Assembly (NCBI GenBank): GCA_016287075.1
Contig: JAEEVC010000014.1
Coordinates: 1 to 64,000, forward strand
From: Bacteroidales bacterium
Lineage (GTDB): Bacteria > Bacteroidota > Bacteroidia > Bacteroidales > UBA932
DNA: 64,000 nt
Direction: 5' to 3'
The notes below the pieces were generated by a model. The model was not told the DNA's origin. It was given only the letters and a program-made list of their open reading frames with translations, and did no database searches. Made by a program: the position numbers and the translations under genes. Positions 40,476 through 51,241 of this stretch are shown piece after piece. Position 1 is the stretch's first letter. Every line of letters begins with the position of its first letter.

Positions 40476-40519
40476 TAAATTTGTACAATTTAAGCCACGC
40501 AATTTAAGCCATACAATTA
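40476..40519 (+). promoter_or_regulatory. -7 box and 14-bp tandem repeat ahead of the fimbrillin-module gene
   Basis: TAAATTTG (40476-40483) is followed by CAATTTAAGCCACG (40486-40499) and CAATTTAAGCCATA (40500-40513), then a partial CAATTA. The repeat sits at the predicted transcription start and 5' leader, where a regulator or phase variation by unit number could act. Confidence 0.6.
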
Positions 40520-43500
40520 CGCATCGTGTTTCTTCTTATCTTTTCGGCCTTCTGGCAGGTGCCTCTGTTCTCTTGTCAGCTTGTGCCCGACAGGAAGACC
40601 ATCCCGCTTCTGCGGACGCCGACCGGTATCTCCGCAGTTTTTCCATGGACATAGAATCTGTTTCGACGCGGGCGGCGATCGATTTCACCAGCGGTTCCGT
40701 TACCTGGAACGACGACGACCGTGTCCTGGTCTATGTCCCCGGTACGGCCCAATCCGCTGAATATAAATACGAAGGGGGCGTCTTTGTCCCCGTTGGTTCC
40801 GAACCGCTTGAAACAGGCGATGCGCTCGCATATGCCTACTATCCCGCGGATGCCTTTTCCATCGACGGGGGCACCGTCACCCTCGCGATGCCTGCCTCGG
40901 TAACGGCTGATCCCGGCAACAAACTGCCGATGGGCGGCATCATTCCCGCCGGGCAGATCGCCGGCGGGAAACCCCGGCCGGAAGGGACTTTCAAGAGCCT
41001 GGGATCCATCATCTGGCTCAAACTGACGGCCGTCGAGGGCAAGGAAGGCACCGTGACGGCGGTCCGGATCGAAAATTCCTCGCTCGCCCTGACGGGTTCG
41101 GCCCCGGTGAGCTGGAACGACGATACGCCCGCTCTGGGTTCGCTCGACGGCGAAAAGGCCATAGAAGTGGCTTGCTCTAAGATACTTACGACTTCCGCTC
41201 CGGCCGAGTTCTATCTTTTCGTGCCTGCCGGCGACCAGCAGGACCTCAGCCTGGAACTGACCCTCGAGGAGGTAGCCGGATACAAATCCTCCGTCAAATA
41301 CGCGCGGACCGGCACCCTGGCCCTTGCGCGCAACAAGGTCCTTCCCATCAGCCTCGACGTGAACGGCAAAGTGCCGAGAGGCATCGCTACGGCGGCCGAT
41401 TTCAAGGCCTTCGCCGCGGCGGTGAATGCCGGCGCTTCCACCGCTGAATGGGAGAATGCGGAAGGATGGGTGAACTTATTGAATGACATCGATTTCGAAG
41501 GCGTCTCCGACTTTGTGCCCGCCGGTTTCGCCAAGGCTCCCTGGAACAGCAGCATGGAGCCCGTCTTCTCGGCTGGGACCCATCCCTTCACCGGCAAGTT
41601 CGACGGCAACGCCTTCCATATCAAGAACCTCCATCTGGTTTGCAATGAGACCGCCGCCGGGAAACACTACGGCCTGTTCGGTTCCCTGGGCCCGGGCGCC
41701 GTGGTCCAGAATTTCGTGATCGAGGACAACTGCTCCCTCACCGTTTCTTCCAGCGTCTCCCTGAGCGCCGGCCTGATCGCCGGCCTGGTCTATGACGCCG
41801 AGGTGCGGGATGTCACCAGCTATGCGCCGCTCACCTACGACGGCGCCGCGACCGGCTTCGTGCACATGGCCCTCATCGGCGGCTGCTTCGCCAAGAATCA
41901 GGGCACGACCGTCGACAGCGTGCACAACCGGGGTGAGATTTCGGCCATGAACACCGCCAACGACAAGGGCAACGTACAGGCTATCCATATTGCGGGCATC
42001 GTCGGCTTCACGAACGCCCCTGCCGACGGAAAGGCGACCACGACCATCGCATCCTGCAACAACTACGCGGACATCGTCTCCCAGGCCGGCCGCACCGCCG
42101 GCATCGTTGCGGCCGCCAACCGCTGCACGGAGATCAACGACTGCGAGAACCACGGCGACCAGGCCAACAGCATGCCCGCCTCCGGCGCCGGCCGGCTGGG
42201 CGGGGTCGTCTGCTTCGTCAACGGTTCCAACATGTCCGCCTGCAAGAACTACGGCAACATCTCCTCCAGCACCAATGCCTGCGTGGGCGGCATCTTCTGC
42301 CTGCCCAACGCCGGCACCTACAAGAACCTGGAGAATTACGGCGAAGTGGTCACGGACAATGCCAACCGCGGCGTCTTCTTCGGCTATGTCAACCAGGCCG
42401 CCGTGTTCGAAGGCGGCATCGCATCCGGGCGTGTGGGCACCTATAACAACGGTTCTCCCGTCTGGGACGTCTATTCGGAGGCCGACAAGGTGGCGTACCT
42501 CGGCGTGCAGCAGAACAGCAAGGGCTCCGGATACAACACCATCAACATCACCATCGCGACTGGGGATGTGCCCTCGGGTGATCCTTCCTTCAACGTGGAG
42601 GCCGGACTGCGGATCTTCTTCATCGGCAACAGCTTCACCAAGGACGCCGTGGAGCATCTTCCCGGTATCCTGGATGCCGCCGGCATTACGGACGTGCAGA
42701 TGGTCCACATGTATTACGGCGGACGCACCATCCCGGAATACAACAGCGGCTACAGCTCCGCCACGGACTACCATTGCTATATCTGCAACCCGGGGGCGAC
42801 GAACTGGACCGATGTGTCCGGCAAGAGCCTCGAAGTTGTCGCCAAGAGCGCGAACTGGGACATCATCACCATCCAGGAGCATACCGGCAGGCAGCTCGCC
42901 TGGGGTTGGACCTCAACGGAGAAAGCGGCCGTGGACGGCCTTCTGAACAAGCTCAAGGCCAATCAGGACGCCCGCGGCGCCTCCCCGAAATACTACTACA
43001 TCCTCTCGCAGGCCTACCATGACCTCTCCAAGGCCCAGAATGTCTCCAAGCCGTTCACGGACACGGATACCATGTGGCCGGTGATCGCCGCCCAGGCGCG
43101 GAGCGCCGTCACCGAATGCGGCTTCGACGGAATCATCTCCACCGGCGCCATGTTGCAGAACCTGCGCACCAGCTGGGCCAACAACGCCATGGGGCTGACC
43201 CGCGACGGATACCACATGGACCTGGGCCTGGCCCGCTATGGCGCCTCCTGCACCGTTTTCGAGACCATCATCGGCCCCAATCACAAGCAGGAACTGCTGG
43301 ACAACAATACTTTCCATCCCAATGTGGGAACTCCGGTCACGGAGTACAATGCCCCGCTGGCCCTGAAAGCGGCCCGGCATGCCATCGCCCATCCCTATGA
43401 CGTGACGGATATGAGCGGGGAAACGGATCCCACCCCGGTCAGCGACATCCGGATCTCCAATGCGGCGCAGCTGCTGGAGTTCGCCTCGCGGGTCAACAGC

Positions 43501-44661
43501 GGAGACGCCGCCGCAGCAGCAGCCTCGGTCACCCTGACGGCTGACATCGACTGCGCCTCCGTGAGCGACTGGACGCCGATCGGCAACGCAACGATGTCCA
43601 CCTGGACGGCCACGAGCCTGGCGCTCTCCGGCCCGTCCTTCACCGGCACCTTCGACGGAGCCGGGCACAGCATCAAGAACCTCCACATGCAGTTCACGCC
43701 CACGGAGGCGTCCCGCTGCTGGGGCTTCTTCGGATCCGTCGGCAACGGCGCCACGATCAAGGACCTGACCTTCGACAGCTCCTGTTCGCTGTCCCTGTCC
43801 TCCGGCGTATCCGGCGTCTTCGGCGTCCTCGCCGGCCTGGTGCAGGGTGCGACCATCGAGAATGTGAAGAACTATGCCCGGGTCGGCGGCGGCGCCACTT
43901 CCGCCATCGCCGACAACACCGCGGCCGGCCGGGTCTATACCGGCGGTCTCGTGGGCATGGTCATGGCCACTTCGGAGGCCCGTCTGACGAATCTGCTCAA
44001 TGCGGCCACCCTCGGTTCGGAGACCAACCCCTTCTCGGGCGGGAAGAACACGGGCAACGGCGCCAACGGCATCCACCTGGGCGGCATCGTCGGTTTCGTC
44101 ACCAATCCGAACAACCAGTCGCTGGTGAAAATCACCGGCTGCCGCAACACGGGCGACATCTACAGCTCGGCGGCCCGGACCTCCGGCATCGCCGCGGCCC
44201 TCAACCGCTACGGCTACCTGAAGGACTGCGAAAATACCGGCAATGTGGTGCACAGCGGCACCAACCCCAATTACCGCCTGGGCAACATCACCTGCATCGC
44301 GGCGGCCGGCTGCACGCTGGAAGGCTGCATCAACCGGGGCGACCTGGTGAGTTCGGGCGGCTGCTCCGTCGCCGGGGTCATCTGCCTGGTCAACCATGAC
44401 GACGTGACCATCAAGGACTGCGCCAGCCTCGGCGCCGGCATCGTCTCGGATTCCGTCAATCCCGACGGGGACCAGACCTACACCGGCGTGCTGTATGGCC
44501 GCTGCCAGAAGAAGGCGACCTTCAGCGGCTGCTCCGTCAGCGGCAGCATCGGCCGCTACGGCGCGACTCCCGTCACCCTCACGGCGGAGAACTACCGCCA
44601 GTATGTCGGCGAGAAATATGCATCGAATACAAGTCTGAATACAATTACCTTTGCAGAATAG
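40516..44661 (+). CDS. Multidomain surface lipoprotein: fimbrillin-like module, GLUG beta-helix, SGNH/DUF4886, GLUG beta-helix
   Basis: About 1381 aa. A lipoprotein signal is open upstream of the ORF track's TTG (40573): THRVSSYLFGLLAGASVLLSAC, with lipobox LSAC. No in-frame ATG or GTG precedes it, and ATT 40516 is the best start candidate, so the start is unusual. Modules: fimbrillin-like N domain (~40-290, AIDFTSGSVTWNDDDRVLVYV; ADPGNKLPMGGIIPAG), GLUG-type beta-helix (~290-690), SGNH/DUF4886 hydrolase (~697-960; LRIFFIGNSFTKDAVEHLP with the GNS serine, and DGYHMDLGLARYG with the C-terminal Asp/His), and a second GLUG region (~975-1380). It may deacylate a surface or host glycan; substrate unknown. 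Followed 4 nt later by a paralogous gene. Confidence 0.82.
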   Translation: MTHRVSSYLFGLLAGASVLLSACARQEDHPASADADRYLRSFSMDIESVSTRAAIDFTSGSVTWNDDDRVLVYVPGTAQSAEYKYEGGVFVPVGSEPLETGDALAYAYYPADAFSIDGGTVTLAMPASVTADPGNKLPMGGIIPAGQIAGGKPRPEGTFKSLGSIIWLKLTAVEGKEGTVTAVRIENSSLALTGSAPVSWNDDTPALGSLDGEKAIEVACSKILTTSAPAEFYLFVPAGDQQDLSLELTLEEVAGYKSSVKYARTGTLALARNKVLPISLDVNGKVPRGIATAADFKAFAAAVNAGASTAEWENAEGWVNLLNDIDFEGVSDFVPAGFAKAPWNSSMEPVFSAGTHPFTGKFDGNAFHIKNLHLVCNETAAGKHYGLFGSLGPGAVVQNFVIEDNCSLTVSSSVSLSAGLIAGLVYDAEVRDVTSYAPLTYDGAATGFVHMALIGGCFAKNQGTTVDSVHNRGEISAMNTANDKGNVQAIHIAGIVGFTNAPADGKATTTIASCNNYADIVSQAGRTAGIVAAANRCTEINDCENHGDQANSMPASGAGRLGGVVCFVNGSNMSACKNYGNISSSTNACVGGIFCLPNAGTYKNLENYGEVVTDNANRGVFFGYVNQAAVFEGGIASGRVGTYNNGSPVWDVYSEADKVAYLGVQQNSKGSGYNTINITIATGDVPSGDPSFNVEAGLRIFFIGNSFTKDAVEHLPGILDAAGITDVQMVHMYYGGRTIPEYNSGYSSATDYHCYICNPGATNWTDVSGKSLEVVAKSANWDIITIQEHTGRQLAWGWTSTEKAAVDGLLNKLKANQDARGASPKYYYILSQAYHDLSKAQNVSKPFTDTDTMWPVIAAQARSAVTECGFDGIISTGAMLQNLRTSWANNAMGLTRDGYHMDLGLARYGASCTVFETIIGPNHKQELLDNNTFHPNVGTPVTEYNAPLALKAARHAIAHPYDVTDMSGETDPTPVSDIRISNAAQLLEFASRVNSGDAAAAAASVTLTADIDCASVSDWTPIGNATMSTWTATSLALSGPSFTGTFDGAGHSIKNLHMQFTPTEASRCWGFFGSVGNGATIKDLTFDSSCSLSLSSGVSGVFGVLAGLVQGATIENVKNYARVGGGATSAIADNTAAGRVYTGGLVGMVMATSEARLTNLLNAATLGSETNPFSGGKNTGNGANGIHLGGIVGFVTNPNNQSLVKITGCRNTGDIYSSAARTSGIAAALNRYGYLKDCENTGNVVHSGTNPNYRLGNITCIAAAGCTLEGCINRGDLVSSGGCSVAGVICLVNHDDVTIKDCASLGAGIVSDSVNPDGDQTYTGVLYGRCQKKATFSGCSVSGSIGRYGATPVTLTAENYRQYVGEKYASNTSLNTITFAE

Positions 44662-44665
44662 TTAA

Positions 44666-47600
44666 ATGAGGAAAACGGTTTTTATCTTGGCATTTGCTGC
44701 AGCTGCCACGCTGTGCGGCGGATGCGGCAGGGAGCAGGAAACCCAGACCCAGCCGGGGAAGTGGGACAACCTGGATCCCGTCACCTACCTTACGGCATTC
44801 GACATGCGGGTCGAAGACGCGCAGACCCGCGCCGACATCGATTTCACCAGCGGTGCCATCAGCTGGAACAGCGGTGACGAGGCGCTGGTCTATGTGCCCT
44901 CGACCGGCAGGTCGTCCGTTTACACCTACAACGGCTCCTGCTTCGAGCCGAAGAACACGCCGCTCCAGATCGGGACCGGCGAGGCCTACGCCTATTTCCC
45001 CGCGTCGGCCTATTCCATCTCCGACGGCAAGGTGAACTTCACCATGCCGGAATCCGTGACGGAAGACCCGGGCAACAAGCTGCCCATGGGCGGCATCATC
45101 CCCTCCGGCGGCATTCCCTCCGGCAAGGAGCGCCGGGAAGGTACGTTCAAGAGCCTCGGCGCCCTTCTCTGGGTCCGCCTGACGGCCGTGGCCGGCAAGG
45201 AAGAGACCCTTTCGGGCATTACCCTGGAGAACACCAAGCTCGCGCTGACCGGCCAGGGCGAGGTGACTTGGAACGGCACGACGCCTTCCCTGTCCGCCCT
45301 GGGCGGCGGCAAGTCCATCCAGGTATCCTGCAACAAGCAGCTCAGCGCCTCTGAGGCGGCCGAGTTCTTCCTTTTCGCCCCCGCCGGCACCCTGGAAGGC
45401 CTCGCACTGACCGTCACGTTCCAGGAAGTGGCGGGCGTCAAGCCCTATACCCGCCTGACCCGTGACGGCGCCCTGACCCTGGAGCGGAACCATGTCGTCC
45501 CGGTCTCCTGGAGCCTGGACGGCCACAGCAACACGGATTCCGCGAAGGGCGATCCCATCGCCGTGAAGGACGGGAAGGTCCTGTTCTTCCTGGAGATCCC
45601 TGCGGAGGGGAGTGCCGTCCGCACGGCCCTCGGCCTCGAGGGCGGCTCCTTCGCCGGCAGCTCCGTCCTGGTCAACGGTACCGCCTATGAGATCCTGATC
45701 AACCCGGGTGGGGAACCCTACGTCGAGGTGGCCGAGGCGGCCGATGGAAAGTACGAGGCTGCGCTCCTGAAAGGGGAGTCCCTGGGCCTGTACGGCGCTT
45801 CCGCCGACAAGGACGTGGTCCTGCCGTTCTCGCAGCTGTACCGGGACACCGCGGCTGATTTCGAGCACTATCCCCGTTACGCCGCCTACTCCGAGGCCAC
45901 GGGCAATGTCCTTTCCTTCAAGGAAGCCGTCGCCCTGCTGGACCTGAAGTTCACCGGCCTGGTCAAACTGTCCTCCGTGAAGGTCCGTTCCCTCGGTGGG
46001 GAGACCCTCAGCGGCCGGGCCGACTATTCCTACGCCGCGTCCGCCTTCTCCCCGAAGGAAAGCCTGGACGAGGCGGTCGTCAACTGCACCAACCAGGGCA
46101 GTTTCCTGCAGCTGTTCAGCTCCGGCAAGAACGTCCCCGTCCTCATCGCCCCCGGTACCTTCTCCGCCGGCCTGGAAATCACGGCCGTTACGGACAATCA
46201 CCTGGTCATGCACAAGACCATCACGCCGGGAACGGTCCAGGCGGGCAGCGTCTATGCGGAGACCATTCCCTGGGTGGCCGACGAGGATGTCGTGTTCTTC
46301 GAGGGCTTCGACAACTTCACCTGGGGCGGCAACGTGATGGCCGGCAGCCAGGGCTTCGGTTACGCGCCGGATGCCTCCGACATGACCATTGAAAGCGGAC
46401 GGGACCGCGACGGTTATGCGCGCGCATATACCAAAGTAGATTACAACGTCGCCGGGACCGGGTACATCCAGCCCAACACCTGGGATGCGGTCAAGAATGC
46501 GACGGTCGGGTCCTCCCATGTCCTGTCGGACTCCTACCTGAAGAGCCGCAACCTCTCCGATTGGTTCATCCTCTACCGCACGCAGGAATACCAGGGCGTC
46601 GTGGCGCTGGGTACGGCCGAGACGTCCCGCGGCGTCCTCCGGACCCCGCTGTTCCGCAATATCCAGGGACCCTGTGACCTGAAGGTCAGCTTCGACATCT
46701 GCCTGCAGGACGGCAATGCTTCGGGCGTCCAGCTGCAGATCTACAACGGCGGTCATTTCGATTCTTGCACCATCGACGGTGCCCCCGCCAATCCCAAGAA
46801 CTATACCTACAAGGCCAATTTCGCCGAGATCCTGTTTGAAGACAATGCGATCCCGGCGGCCGCCTCGATGGAGTCCGCCAAGACCTGGCACAGAGTCGAG
46901 GTGACGGTCCGTGACGCCACCGACGCCACGGCCCTCGACATCCGCAGCGCCGTCGCTTCGGGCGCCACGCTGGGCCTCTGGGTGGACAACATCCTGGCCA
47001 GGCAGATCAAGAACACCAAGGACAAGGGCAACCTCCGCATCCTGTACTGGAACATCCAGAACGGCATGTGGTGGGACCAGGGCAACAACTACGACAATTT
47101 TGTCGCCTTCGTGAAGAAATACGATCCGGACATCTGCATCTGGTGCGAAAGCGAGAGCATCTACAAGACCGGTTCGGATGCCTACGAGAACACGGGCGAC
47201 CGCTACCTGTATTATTCCAGGCCCGGCAACTGGACCGCGCTCGCGAAGCGTTACGGCCACAGCTATGCATCCATCAGCGGCCGCACGGACAGCTATCCGC
47301 AGGAGGTGACTTCAAAGTATCCGATCACCCGGGTGCAGGCGTTCTCCAACAGTTCCAACCTGTTCCACGGCGGCGGCCATTTCCAGATCACGGTCAACGG
47401 CACCCTGCTCAACATCGTGACCACGCACCCGTATCCGAAGAATTCCGGCGACGGCAACCACTCGTCCAGCGCCCAGATCGAGTCGGACAACCTGCGCGTG
47501 AAGGAAATGACGTACCTGCTCGCCCAGACCGTCAACAAGAGCACGTATTCCTCCGAAAAGAACTGGGTGATGGCGGGCGACATGAACGCCAACAGCCCCC

Positions 47601-47914
47601 TGGACTGCTGGTACACCGGAGCCGACCCCAATAATATTGCGTTCAAGGCCCAGGGATACGTCCTGGAGCATTCGGACCTGAAGGATTCGGTCTACGAGTT
47701 CTGGAACGCCGGGACCCCCGACACCTTCTGCAGCTCCACCAACGGTTCCAAGGACCGCCGGGATTTCGTCTATCTCTCGCCTGCGCTGATGGGGAAGACC
47801 GTGCGCGCCATTTCCCTCAACGACAGCTGGACCTACAGCATCAAGTCGCTGAATATCTCGAACTTCAAGAGCCCGTCCGACCACCGGCCCATCCTTGTTG
47901 ACATTCAACTGTAA
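44666..47914 (+). CDS. Multidomain surface lipoprotein: fimbrillin-like module with C-terminal EEP domain
   Basis: 1082 aa. Lipobox TLCGGCGRE. The N-terminal ~30-280 closely parallels the previous protein: ADIDFTSGAISWNSGDEALVYV and DPGNKLPMGGIIPSG, then GTFKSLGALLWVRLTAV. The middle region (~280-780) is beta-rich without a family I recognise. The C-terminal ~788-1082 is an endonuclease/exonuclease/phosphatase-like domain: RILYWNIQNGMW, ICIWCESES (Glu), TTHPYP (His), AGDMNANSP, and SDHRPILVD. It probably cleaves a phosphoester at the cell surface. The gene starts 4 nt after its paralogue, so they form one operon. Confidence 0.85.
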   Translation: MRKTVFILAFAAAATLCGGCGREQETQTQPGKWDNLDPVTYLTAFDMRVEDAQTRADIDFTSGAISWNSGDEALVYVPSTGRSSVYTYNGSCFEPKNTPLQIGTGEAYAYFPASAYSISDGKVNFTMPESVTEDPGNKLPMGGIIPSGGIPSGKERREGTFKSLGALLWVRLTAVAGKEETLSGITLENTKLALTGQGEVTWNGTTPSLSALGGGKSIQVSCNKQLSASEAAEFFLFAPAGTLEGLALTVTFQEVAGVKPYTRLTRDGALTLERNHVVPVSWSLDGHSNTDSAKGDPIAVKDGKVLFFLEIPAEGSAVRTALGLEGGSFAGSSVLVNGTAYEILINPGGEPYVEVAEAADGKYEAALLKGESLGLYGASADKDVVLPFSQLYRDTAADFEHYPRYAAYSEATGNVLSFKEAVALLDLKFTGLVKLSSVKVRSLGGETLSGRADYSYAASAFSPKESLDEAVVNCTNQGSFLQLFSSGKNVPVLIAPGTFSAGLEITAVTDNHLVMHKTITPGTVQAGSVYAETIPWVADEDVVFFEGFDNFTWGGNVMAGSQGFGYAPDASDMTIESGRDRDGYARAYTKVDYNVAGTGYIQPNTWDAVKNATVGSSHVLSDSYLKSRNLSDWFILYRTQEYQGVVALGTAETSRGVLRTPLFRNIQGPCDLKVSFDICLQDGNASGVQLQIYNGGHFDSCTIDGAPANPKNYTYKANFAEILFEDNAIPAAASMESAKTWHRVEVTVRDATDATALDIRSAVASGATLGLWVDNILARQIKNTKDKGNLRILYWNIQNGMWWDQGNNYDNFVAFVKKYDPDICIWCESESIYKTGSDAYENTGDRYLYYSRPGNWTALAKRYGHSYASISGRTDSYPQEVTSKYPITRVQAFSNSSNLFHGGGHFQITVNGTLLNIVTTHPYPKNSGDGNHSSSAQIESDNLRVKEMTYLLAQTVNKSTYSSEKNWVMAGDMNANSPLDCWYTGADPNNIAFKAQGYVLEHSDLKDSVYEFWNAGTPDTFCSSTNGSKDRRDFVYLSPALMGKTVRAISLNDSWTYSIKSLNISNFKSPSDHRPILVDIQL

Positions 47915-47929
47915 ACATATCGGCAGTCT

Positions 47930-48076
47930 ATGAAAAGAGAACAGTATTCCGCCCCGGCCCTGCGTATCGTGGACCTCGCCCTCTCCGGGCAGTTCCTCGT
48001 CGGCTCGGCCAACCTGGATTCCAGCATCGAACCCCTCGTGATCCTGGAGGACGATTCGTCGAACTGGTCGATCTGA
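47930..48076 (+). CDS. 48-aa mini-protein (YSAP...EDDSSNW type)
   Basis: Too short for the ORF track. It begins MKREQYSAPALRI, then a hydrophobic run (VDLALSGQFLVGS), and ends LEDDSSNWSI before TGA. It shares YSAP, an L-x-L ... L-x-G-S core and an acidic tail EDD-x-x-N-W with the next mini-protein at 48122, so the two are siblings. No lipobox or signal peptide. It starts 15 nt after the EEP-containing gene and is GC-rich like that gene. Short acidic-tailed proteins of this sort are common next to fimbrillin-like genes in Bacteroidales; function is unknown. Confidence 0.65.
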   Translation: MKREQYSAPALRIVDLALSGQFLVGSANLDSSIEPLVILEDDSSNWSI

Positions 48077-48121
48077 TCGTTTCGAATCAAAGTAATTAAT
48101 AATATAAATAACTGATTTTCA

Positions 48122-48274
48122 ATGCGTATGAAAACAGATCCCTATTCTGCTCCAAACGCCGAAGTTTTGTTCCTGCGCCTGGAAGAAACCATTTTGAGCG
48201 GGGAAATCCGCCCAGGTAACAAGCCCACGGAAAACTTCGATGGGCCCGTTGAAGATGATGAAAATTGGATGTAA
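48122..48274 (+). CDS. 50-aa mini-protein, sibling of the 48-aa protein
   Basis: Too short for the ORF track. MRMKTDPYSAPNAEVLFL, a central EETILSGEIRPG segment and an acidic tail GPVEDDENWM. ATG 48128 is an alternative start. It lies 15 nt upstream of the beta-helix lipoprotein gene, so it is probably co-transcribed with it, and its codon use (CCTATTCTGCTCC, GTTTTGTTC) is AT-richer than the 48-aa sibling, matching the following gene. The conserved ends and variable middle suggest a secreted or partner-binding peptide, but no function can be assigned. Confidence 0.62.
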   Translation: MRMKTDPYSAPNAEVLFLRLEETILSGEIRPGNKPTENFDGPVEDDENWM

Positions 48275-48289
48275 AAAGGAGGAAAGAGT

Positions 48290-51241
48290 ATGAAAAAGAA
48301 TTTGAAACTTTTCGGGCTCATCGCCCTTTTTGCCATCGCTTTCTCCTGTTCCAAGGAGGCAAACCAGGACGTGGCAACCCCCGAAGGAAACGATCCAGAG
48401 GAGCAGACTGTTCCCGTCACCGAAGAACCGGCGGCAGACGGAAATCTTCTTACAAGTTTCAGCGTTACCTTTGAGAACGACGCTGAAGGAGCCCCGACCA
48501 AGGTTTCCGTGGATCTGGGAACCGGAGTGACCGATATCGAGTCGGATGACGAAGTTCTCGTTGTCAGCAGCAGCGAATCTGCTGTCTATAAGTATAACGG
48601 AGAAGTGTTCGTGCCCAAGACGGCTGGCAGCGAAGTCACGATTTCCGATGCGGGCGTGAGTGTCTATTATCCGGCTGGCGAATTCGAATTGACGGGTAAT
48701 CAAGTACTGTTCACCATGCCTGCTGCGATTTTGGCCGCTGATTACGGCACAATCAATCCCATGGCCGGCCAGATTACCGAATCTGAGGGAGCTTACACGG
48801 TTCAGCTTTGCAACATGGTCTCTGTGCTGAAAGTGAATGTAACTGCAGCCTCTGAAATTCAGTCGGTTACACTGAACTATGGCTCTGTGAATGACGCGGC
48901 TTTGAACTACGGAACCGGCTCCAAGTGGTCCGTTGATGCGGCGAACAAGACACTGATGTTTGTTGAGGGATCCGCAACTGAAACGGCTGTTTCCGTTTCC
49001 GAGACCTCGGCTGAAGTGGCATTCATCCTCCCCGCCGTTGAACTCGGGAAACTGACCGTTACGGCCAATCAGACCACAGGACAATCCATTTCTATATCCA
49101 GAGCTGGTTTTACGCCGACAAAGAATACCATCTCCACGATGTCTTTCAATGCCCTCTTCTCGGGTGGTAAAGGCACAGAAAAATCGCCTTACAAGATTGC
49201 CACTGCCCAGGACTTCAAAGACATCTCAGTTCACGCAGCCAACGGCTTTGCCGGACTGGAGGCCAGCTATTTCCTCGGAGCCTATTACATCCAGACTGCA
49301 GTTATTGATTTCAATGGTGAAGACCTCAGCGGCTACATGATTGCCTCGGCTTCCGCTCCTTTCACCGGCACTTATGATGGTGACAGCAAGACCCTGAGCA
49401 ACTTCAGCATTGAAGGCTCTCCCAGCGGCAACGAGGGCGTAGCTCTTTTCAAGGCCATCAATGGCGCTACGCTTCAGAACATCTCCATCTCTGGTGCTAA
49501 CGTCACTGGTGGCAAGTTTACCGCGGGCCTGGTTGGCTACGCAAATGGTGCAAGCCTTACAATCACCGGATGCTCCATTTCCTCTTCCACCATTTCAGCC
49601 AGTGGTGACTACGGAGCTGCCGGTCTTATCGGCGGTCTGTATGCCGGCACGGTTTCAAGTTGCTCCGGTACTGACCTTACCATTGGTGCAACCAATACAT
49701 CGGGCAACAAGAGGTATTATGGCGGACTTATCAGCTATGCTCGCGGTACAACCACCGTATACGGTTGTTCGCTCAATGGAACCACTACCGTAAACGGCAC
49801 TCCTGCCTATTTCGGCGGTATTGCCGGCCAGACCAACGAAGATGAGACCACCATTACCGGCTGCGAAAACCACTCCGACATTTCCGGCGCAGGCAACTTT
49901 GCCGGTGGCATTGTCGGCATTAAGACCAAGGGCTCGATTGAAGGTTGTACCAATGACGGCAGCGTCGGCGGCGCTCAGTATGTGGGCGGCATTGCAGGGA
50001 GAAATGAGGCCGGAAATATCCTTGGCTGCACCAACGAAGGTGATATCGTATCGACTGGTATTGCCGGTGGTATTGCGGGGCAGGTCACAGGCGGTACCAT
50101 TAAGGACTGCACCAATGAAAGCAGCGCCACCTTCTCTGTCAGCGGTGCTACAGTAGGCGGAATCGCTGGCACCCTCACCGGTGGTACCATTACCGCTTCC
50201 GATGGCAGATATACGGAGAACAAGGCCGATATCGATCTCGGTGTTGTTGAAGGAAAGAATAACGTCGGTGGCATTGTTGGTCAGCTTGAAGGCGCTATCA
50301 CCAATGTCAAGAATTCGGGTGCAATCACCGGTTATTACAATATCGGCGGCATCGGCGGCACTATTACTACAAACGCTTCTGTAGAGAATGCCCTTTCTTC
50401 GGGAAATGTCTCCGGCTATCAGAATGTCGGCGGCATTTCAGGAAAGCATGGTCATAATGCAAATGCTGCGATAACCAAAAAGATCACTCTCAAAAACTGT
50501 CATGTGGATGGCGCAGACATCACGGCAAGCGCCGATGACGGACGTGCCGGCGGTATTGCAGGTCTTGTTTTTGCTGGTTCCTGGATCGAAGGCTGCACCG
50601 CATTCCGCGGGTCGGTTTCCGGTCATCAGGATGTGGGAGGTGCCATCGGTCACCTGCAGTATGCCAGCAGCAGCACCGACAAGAGCAACCGTATATATGT
50701 CGGAGCCAATCTGGTCTCTATGGACGTTTCCGGTCTTACTCCTATTAACAATACTTCCAGGATCGGCGGATTCTTTGGCTGGTTCCAGAATAACAAGGAT
50801 GCCTATACCTTCGCTTATCAGAACGGTGTTGTCGGTGGCAGCATTATTGCTGAGGGGTGCCAGTATGTGGGTTCCTTCGTCGGCTATGCAAGCGTTTCCA
50901 GCAATAAGGGCCGTATCTGGGATTCTTACTCCCTCATTGAAGACTCCAATTTCCATGTGACTACCACAAATGCCAATATCGGTGGCTTCGCCGGAGGGTA
51001 TGGTAATGCGAATGTCAATTCCGTCCGTAACGCTCATGTGAACTCGCAGAACACTTCAGCTGCTACCAGCGGTATTACCAAAACTACGGTTGCAGACATC
51101 CGCACCGTCAATTTGGGTACTTCGGAAACTCCGTCCTGCAATGTCGATGGCTCGGCTTACACAACCACTACCTGGTCCAACCCTAGCGATGTGAATTATC
51201 CCGTTCCGACAATCCTTGTTACGTACGGACACTACAAATAG
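48290..51241 (+). CDS. Surface lipoprotein: fimbrillin-like module with long GLUG beta-helix
   Basis: 983 aa. Lipobox IAFSCSKE (Cys ~20). Residues ~40-285 resemble the fimbrillin-like module of the two upstream proteins (GVTDIESDDEVLVVSSSESAVYKYNG; YYPAGEF), while ~290-960 are GLUG-type repeats with the core G-G-I-A/V-G (YVGGIAGRNEAGNI; GIAGGIAGQVTGG; NVGGIVGQLEGAI). This builds a long right-handed beta-helix adhesin or stalk. No catalytic domain was recognised. The coding sequence is AT-richer than the genes on both sides, a sign of separate origin or recombination. A GC-stem hairpin (51267-51287) without a T run follows. Confidence 0.88.
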   Translation: MKKNLKLFGLIALFAIAFSCSKEANQDVATPEGNDPEEQTVPVTEEPAADGNLLTSFSVTFENDAEGAPTKVSVDLGTGVTDIESDDEVLVVSSSESAVYKYNGEVFVPKTAGSEVTISDAGVSVYYPAGEFELTGNQVLFTMPAAILAADYGTINPMAGQITESEGAYTVQLCNMVSVLKVNVTAASEIQSVTLNYGSVNDAALNYGTGSKWSVDAANKTLMFVEGSATETAVSVSETSAEVAFILPAVELGKLTVTANQTTGQSISISRAGFTPTKNTISTMSFNALFSGGKGTEKSPYKIATAQDFKDISVHAANGFAGLEASYFLGAYYIQTAVIDFNGEDLSGYMIASASAPFTGTYDGDSKTLSNFSIEGSPSGNEGVALFKAINGATLQNISISGANVTGGKFTAGLVGYANGASLTITGCSISSSTISASGDYGAAGLIGGLYAGTVSSCSGTDLTIGATNTSGNKRYYGGLISYARGTTTVYGCSLNGTTTVNGTPAYFGGIAGQTNEDETTITGCENHSDISGAGNFAGGIVGIKTKGSIEGCTNDGSVGGAQYVGGIAGRNEAGNILGCTNEGDIVSTGIAGGIAGQVTGGTIKDCTNESSATFSVSGATVGGIAGTLTGGTITASDGRYTENKADIDLGVVEGKNNVGGIVGQLEGAITNVKNSGAITGYYNIGGIGGTITTNASVENALSSGNVSGYQNVGGISGKHGHNANAAITKKITLKNCHVDGADITASADDGRAGGIAGLVFAGSWIEGCTAFRGSVSGHQDVGGAIGHLQYASSSTDKSNRIYVGANLVSMDVSGLTPINNTSRIGGFFGWFQNNKDAYTFAYQNGVVGGSIIAEGCQYVGSFVGYASVSSNKGRIWDSYSLIEDSNFHVTTTNANIGGFAGGYGNANVNSVRNAHVNSQNTSAATSGITKTTVADIRTVNLGTSETPSCNVDGSAYTTTTWSNPSDVNYPVPTILVTYGHYK

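Follow-up and report, generated by a model that had tools for sequence, protein, structure and literature searches.

The closest described systems are those of the linear polyphosphorylated peptides (LPP), a class of RiPPs (ribosomally synthesised and post-translationally modified peptides) that Popov et al. 2026 (PMC13381572) report from Bacillota only, with an unknown role. Their leader, of consensus YxxPxVLxHQxIxFETxxS, is presented by a RiPP recognition element (RRE) and cut after F-E-T by a signal-peptidase-like protease; Ser3 is phosphorylated, LppS has S/H/D residues, and TfuB1 6jx3 is among the lasso RRE-leader complexes listed there (PMC13381572). YxxP is itself a known lasso RRE motif, according to a second source (PMC12710340). 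We analysed a 64,000-nucleotide stretch of a Bacteroidales genome (GCA_016287075.1, contig JAEEVC010000014.1, positions 1 to 64,000; hereafter the window) in which three genes for large lipoproteins (open reading frames ORF1 to ORF3) are accompanied by two ORFs of about 50 codons (mini1 and mini2; such peptides are called minis below). We consider it fairly probable that the minis are RiPP-type precursors encoded at scattered sites, each expressed along with a surface lipoprotein of FimA fold, and that they are matured by an LPP-like machine encoded elsewhere in the genome.

Compared with the description of the LPP systems (PMC13381572), the genus of the window's genome combines a discrete lasso-type RRE, a signal-peptidase-like leader protease with the S/H/D residues of LppS and an ABC exporter, with a kinase-like protein and a putative nucleotidyltransferase in part of the loci. 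The setting in a polysaccharide locus (own genome, as judged by eye) is also alike, and the short precursors, whose YxxP....FE..S leaders precede variable C termini, look similar; the agreement between mini and LPP leaders appears close in layout, if inexact. The two differ in phylum (Bacteroidales here, Bacillota for LPP) and in that each precursor here is coupled to a FimA-fold lipoprotein (PMC13381572). The assignment best supported by these sequence comparisons is a Bacteroidales relative of the LPP RiPP systems whose precursors are scattered over the genome, each of them paired with a lipoprotein of FimA fold. It is not filed as an LPP system proper, because the precursors do not lie in the cluster and because the chemistry is putative, although it would operate in the manner of one. 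No description of such a system was found in the open-licence literature, which omits most subscription journals.

Small YxxP peptides and their lipoprotein partners

The minis lie between ORF2 and ORF3:

47930..48076, plus strand: mini1, 48 aa, putative YxxP precursor peptide; the usual downstream partner gene is missing here
48122..48274, plus strand: mini2, 50 aa, putative YxxP precursor peptide, 15 bp 5′ of ORF3
48290..51241, plus strand: ORF3, lipoprotein (diverged N module, GLUG repeats)

A preliminary description, made from the sequence of the window, had noticed these two ORFs and called them siblings, a term that holds for the common motif but not for close sequence, since mini1 and mini2 are only about 26% identical. 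Orthologues of mini1 show dN/dS (nonsynonymous to synonymous substitution rate) ratios of 0.21-0.45, for pairs with finite dS and with near-identical pairs left out; the signal is weaker for mini2, whose pairs with the window copy reach 0.56-0.69. The minis are real genes. None of 42 minis matched Pfam, and no convincing NCBIfam family was found for them, a single marginal match (E 0.042) carrying an unrelated name.

Minis have no signal peptide and share the motif YxxP..(F/L)E..S. The Tyr and Pro are invariant over 26, 42 and 55 aligned minis; the ORF search required Y..P, so that these two positions are not independent of it while the rest of the motif is. Among 62 unique minis, Glu occurs at Tyr+13 in 42, Leu, Ile or Phe at Tyr+16 in 48, Leu or Cys at Tyr+17 in 49, and Ser at Tyr+19 in 27 or at Tyr+20 in 18. 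The part after the Glu has a mean length of 26 residues and a net charge of -5, and 66% of the minis have a Trp close to its end. A stretch of the form L.GS prompted us to consider a double-glycine (PCAT) leader, a candidate rejected on finding no C39 peptidase (PF03412) in the own genome.

A model built from 26 minis gave 39 matches in the window's genome. With two matches added from another search 41 were pooled, from which C48:24431 (E 0.36) and C41:43909 (E 0.83), both inside other ORFs, were dropped. Of the 39 loci then scored, 35 are located -29 to +54 bp 5′ of a lipoprotein gene. Nearly all partners carry the T[RK]...W motif of the N module described below; ORF3 is without the W. The four remaining loci are mini1 of the window, whose partner gene is absent; C64:20341, where a lipoprotein is next but its lipobox falls outside the search pattern; C8:2461, where the mini lies 3′ rather than 5′ of an N-module lipoprotein; and C20:1998, where no lipoprotein was found next to the mini. 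In a control on 556 kb of own-genome stretches (overlaps counted, and chosen around matches rather than at random), a lipoprotein was next for 33 of 36 mini matches, against 126 of 3152 other short ORFs; there were 0 matches among reversed decoys. The presence of a lipoprotein gene next to the mini was used as the measure here, a strict partner filter (T[RK]..W..xD) being too narrow and overlooking many genuine partners (23 of 36).

The pairing extends through the genus, where mini matches were obtained in 54 of 61 genomes, the own included. In the other genomes, 26 of 29 best-match mini loci precede a lipoprotein as judged by script, and the remaining three are, on inspection, contig-edge or frame-broken versions of the same layout. 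These 29 loci are no blind test: at least five genomes (G004, G005, G009, G019, G026) had already been fed to the model, and three of the loci repeat the operon type of the window itself. One partner (L142) was scored by the loose pattern and has no convincing FimA-like motif. Outside the genus the hidden Markov model of the minis is weak, with matches at E ≤ 1e-3 in 3 of 148 genomes from the order, the own among them; both minis of G089, from another family, precede lipoproteins. Thus the linkage of minis to N-module genes that the preliminary description had supposed is recovered elsewhere, and neither outcome that it named as refuting, an N module confined to ordinary fimbrial subunits or minis unlinked to these genes in other genomes, was found.

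Mini cores and partner N modules also co-vary (Mantel r 0.83 for 35 pairs and 0.34 for 29 non-redundant ones, with 0 of 5000 permutations as high; 0.27 for the leader alone), as expected for pairs inherited together. The 35 partners scanned end in many different cargoes: GLUG repeats in 6, Mfa_like_1 in 6 (E ≤ 0.001), BspA-type leucine-rich repeats in 4, peptidase M64 in 2 and BACON in 2, with single cases that include a non-specific nuclease, Omp28 and a GDSL lipase. Genes of the ORF1 and ORF2 type have the N module and no mini directly 5′, in the window and in its relatives. A tandem operon of FimA-like lipoproteins in the own genome (L045 10636-16341, G000:C46) likewise has no minis, unlike the single large FimA-fold lipoproteins. 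Because of these two gene types, the mini is not a requirement of the N module.

Five closely similar copies of one mini-lipoprotein pair, with partners that start with LKWSS..RK, were observed at G000:C16, C36, C43 and C65 (two); they represent a recent expansion in which mini and lipoprotein were duplicated together. At L095 (2342-5233), L153 and L145, the partner lipoprotein gene is apparently frame-broken or startless beside an intact mini, possibly through phase variation or assembly error.

A locus for RRE, protease and exporter, and its co-occurrence with minis

The window's genome has one PqqD/RRE gene, at a locus that adjoins polysaccharide-export-like genes (by eye):

G000:C60, about 43144-46646, strand -: machine locus (RRE, S24-like protease, NTP_transf_5, ABC exporter)

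Among 14 RRE loci of the genus, the S24-like protease adjoins PqqD in 13, an ABC exporter is found in 12 (that of the own genome matches PF00005 and PF00664) and a P-loop kinase-like protein in 10. The NTP_transf_5 match is strong at the own locus (E 6e-39), yet the family occurs at only 3 of the 14. Ser, His and Asp are kept in 13 of 13 machine proteases. Compared with the PDB, the RRE profile returned TfuB1 6jx3 as its sole match (E 1.6e-4). A lasso peptide proper was considered and rejected, the B2 leader protease family (PF13471) being absent from the own genome.

Two side observations concern the same gene families. At L186 (G013:C1) a PqqD gene has other, lasso-like surroundings that include genes resembling asparagine synthases (by eye), and the own kinase homologue (L174 5094-5900, minus strand, G000:C23) lies beside a mini-lipoprotein pair on the opposite strand, away from the RRE locus.

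Minis and machine-type RRE were then counted over 232 genomes of the genus that are at least 85% complete. Minis were present in 204 and the RRE in 207; both were present in 196, minis only in 8, RRE only in 11 and neither in 17, where 3 are expected (Fisher P 6e-13, without tree correction). Absence was deduced for 8 genomes (minis) and 5 genomes (RRE) from their not appearing in the match lists; leaving out 8 genomes with deduced absence, the counts become 196/8/9/11, with a Fisher P of 6.6e-9. An earlier, smaller sample of 60 genomes agrees (P 0.007).

Proposed pathway and alternative readings

Because of their motif and of the co-occurring RRE, peptidase and exporter machine, we read the minis as leader-core precursors. 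Gene order, fold, motif, purifying selection, coupling and co-loss with the RRE are direct results, to which the following scheme adds RRE binding, cleavage, modification and export of the minis. The three large genes would encode surface lipoproteins made of a lipid anchor, a FimA-fold N module and an exchangeable cargo, the island's cargoes coming from an operon that, judging by relatives, would take up and degrade phosphodiester-containing material. The minis would enter an LPP-like RiPP pathway as leader-core precursor peptides. Their leader (YxxP......(F/L)E) would be bound by the discrete PqqD-type RRE and cut by the signal-peptidase-like protease, and the acidic core of about 25 residues, its Ser probably modified beforehand by the kinase and/or the nucleotidyltransferase, would be exported by the ABC transporter. 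One machine in a polysaccharide-type locus would serve dozens of scattered precursors, each lying immediately 5′ of the gene for a FimA-fold lipoprotein, so that the two products are synthesised jointly. As a guess, the mature peptide might act on its lipoprotein or be displayed with it.

Several points weigh against this scheme. LPP clusters, as described, hold one to three precursors, whereas dozens are dispersed over the genome here, and the minis differ from the LPP leader in a Tyr-Glu spacing shorter by one residue and in the HQ and T, which are not conserved (PMC13381572). No mini was found inside the fetched machine loci, and only one nearby, 9 kb from the own machine. The protease scores under the Pfam S24 cut-off (20.6 vs 23.3 bits); the kinase gave a weak PEPCK_ATP match (22 bits, also under the cut-off), and in the own genome its homologue sits on a different contig. 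Minis occur without an RRE in eight genomes, one of which is 85% complete and has 11 minis, and the RRE occurs without minis in 11. Of the four minis found in other families, two, both in G054, have no lipoprotein next to them.

Among the alternatives, the one that survives best, though we think it unlikely, regards the minis as translated leader ORFs that control the next gene by translational coupling or attenuation, the peptide having no task outside the cell. They lie 5′ of the gene that they would control and in many cases overlap it (gaps of -29 to +54), which would suit such a role. Conservation, on the other hand, is at the protein level along the whole mini, including the acidic C terminus of orthologues, and Y and P are invariant in the aligned minis, though preset by the search for Y..P; the co-loss of minis and RRE would also be left unexplained.

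That co-loss could instead have come about through genome reduction or common descent, the RRE machine having other, unseen precursors, a reading that we hold to be about as unlikely, or slightly more so. The statistic carries no phylogenetic correction, and shared loss in few lineages would inflate the co-loss; some double-negative genomes are indeed small (1.5-1.6 Mb). The 13 double-negatives with a listed size nevertheless average 2.18 Mb, other genomes of 1.6-1.7 Mb keep both minis and RRE, and the leader motif fits RRE substrates independently of co-loss.

A dedicated role of the minis in the cytosol, as chaperones of the FimA-fold lipoproteins or as partners in their assembly, seems improbable to us (the preliminary description had offered partners, caps or chaperones). 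Such a role would suit one mini per lipoprotein and the co-variation of mini and N module but not an N module without a mini directly 5′ in ORF1 and ORF2 and their relatives, nor the mini-free tandem FimA-like operon, nor the lack of a signal peptide, and it leaves the link to RRE, protease and exporter unexplained.

If the reading of the minis as RiPP-type precursors is correct, the LPP class would reach a second phylum and gain a first concrete clue to its function, each precursor here being linked to one surface lipoprotein. A family of ORFs of about 50 aa that lies outside Pfam and any convincing NCBIfam family would also be accounted for. The data suggest that many surface proteins of these rumen gut bacteria come with their own small partner peptide. 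A bolder extension is possible, and we put it forward tentatively, as something less than an even prospect: a single RRE/protease/exporter machine might act as one factory for dozens of modified peptides, with each peptide serving the FimA-fold lipoprotein encoded next as its cognate ligand, cap or cofactor, such that Bacteroidales surface-protein families would be two-part protein-plus-RiPP devices.

The N module and the operon of the relatives

The other features of the island are:

40476..40483, plus strand: TAAATTTG, resembling the Bacteroidota -7 box (sequence)
40516..44661, plus strand: ORF1, lipoprotein (FimA-like N module, beta-helix-like repeats, DUF4886 (SGNH), repeats; sequence, Pfam)
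40516..41370, plus strand: N module of ORF1 (pairwise comparison)
42610..43380, plus strand: DUF4886 domain of ORF1, residues 699-955 (Pfam E 1.1e-29)
44666..47914, plus strand: ORF2, lipoprotein (FimA-like N module, Ig-like domain, EEP phosphoesterase; sequence, Pfam, fold model)
44666..45526, plus strand: N module of ORF2, type V pilin fold (predicted structure)
47042..47788, plus strand: EEP domain of ORF2, residues 793-1041 (Pfam, homologue alignment)

As the preliminary description had proposed, the three lipoprotein genes have an N module in common. The relationship is strong between ORF1 and ORF2 (50% identity over 278 aa, E 3e-80) and weak between ORF3 and ORF2 (33% over 132 aa, E 1e-12); the match of ORF3 to ORF1 (E 6e-23) falls partly within the repeat region. 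A fold model of ORF2 residues 21-540, built from 20 sequences, has a predicted local distance difference test score (pLDDT) of 76-93 over model residues 51-230, except for one block at 58, and lower values beyond. The top PDB matches of the modelled N module by VIA-align are Bacteroides pilin-like proteins (3ufi, Z 14.3; 3t2l, 14.1; 4k4k, 13.6; 3sy6, 13.2), with lower scores for P. gingivalis FimA (6jzj, Z 8.2) and Mfa2 (5nfi, Z 7.0), and Foldseek agrees on the pilin fold. Residues from about 400 to 520 gave only generic immunoglobulin (Ig)-like folds, at Z of 7.3 or less. In its predicted structure, the N module thus has the two-domain fold of FimA and the type V pilins, and "fimbrillin-like" is the right term for it, even though Pfam Mfa_like_1 gave no match in ORF1, ORF2 or ORF3 at E ≤ 1. 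A search of the PDB with the ORF2 sequence found no match, and profile A3 a single weak S-layer match (E 0.16).

The window proteins resemble the FimA superfamily and type V pilins of Bacteroidales, known from structures of Bacteroides pilin-like proteins and of P. gingivalis FimA and Mfa2-4, in module fold, lipoprotein signal and a T[RK] near the module start. They are too distant in sequence for Pfam Mfa_like_1, and their genes, unlike those of pilins, form no tandem pilin operon and encode large cargoes, enzymes or repeats, at the C terminus: DUF4886 in ORF1 (E 1e-29), EEP in ORF2 (E 2e-5, barely above cut-off at 24.8 vs 24.5 bits) and GLUG repeats in ORF3 (E 3e-15). The exchange of cargoes on the module supposed earlier is seen here as well as among the 35 mini partners. 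The EEP motif residues (N, E, H, D/N, SDH) are kept in 4 of 4 homologues of ORF2. An attempt to derive a phosphodiester substrate from the EEP structure was abandoned, the AlphaFold2 (AF2) model of the domain having a mean pLDDT of only 53.9 and profile A7 being without any PDB relative.

Six rumen metagenome-assembled loci, found via the N module and read as far as each contig extends, give the gene order in relatives: a GDPD lipoprotein, SGNH/DUF4886, EEP, mini1, an N-module protein of about 740 aa, mini2, an N-module protein of about 850 aa and SusC. In G189 further operon genes follow: SusD, a BACON/NAGPA protein, another BACON protein, a second EEP, a GlpT/UhpT/PgtP-type MFS transporter (score below curated cut-offs) and a periplasmic binding protein. 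Compared with these, the window keeps the SGNH gene (76% identical), the EEP gene (65%) and both minis, and ORF3 is about 30% identical over its length to the gene of about 850 aa. The gene of about 740 aa that follows mini1 in relatives is missing, as are the adjacent GDPD and SusC; a GDPD homologue of 56% identity is on another contig of the window's genome. The preliminary idea of a surface module with exchangeable effectors stands, while that of a self-contained island does not: the island is what remains, after decay, of a larger operon of SusC/D type.

With SusC, SusD, BACON lipoproteins, hydrolases and an MFS transporter, the relatives' operon is of the kind of SusC/SusD-type utilisation operons; the window copy differs in having lost SusC/D and more, and the enzymes would point to phosphodiesters rather than plain glycans. 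The presence of GDPD, EEP, a phosphodiester glycosidase and an organophosphate-type transporter suggests use of phosphodiester-containing material, for example glycerophosphodiesters or teichoic acids. The operon seen at L084-L089 and L192 is a candidate phosphodiester-utilisation locus of this composition (GDPD, SGNH, two EEPs, NAGPA phosphodiester glycosidase, SusC/D, GlpT/UhpT/PgtP-type transporter).

At the 5′ end of the island, ORF1 has no ATG, GTG or TTG at its likely start, and an ATT, which appears to serve as its start codon, stands at 40516 where five relatives carry ATG. This ATT sits just 3′ of the TAAATTTG box, and directly after the point where the operon's upstream neighbour diverges from the relatives.

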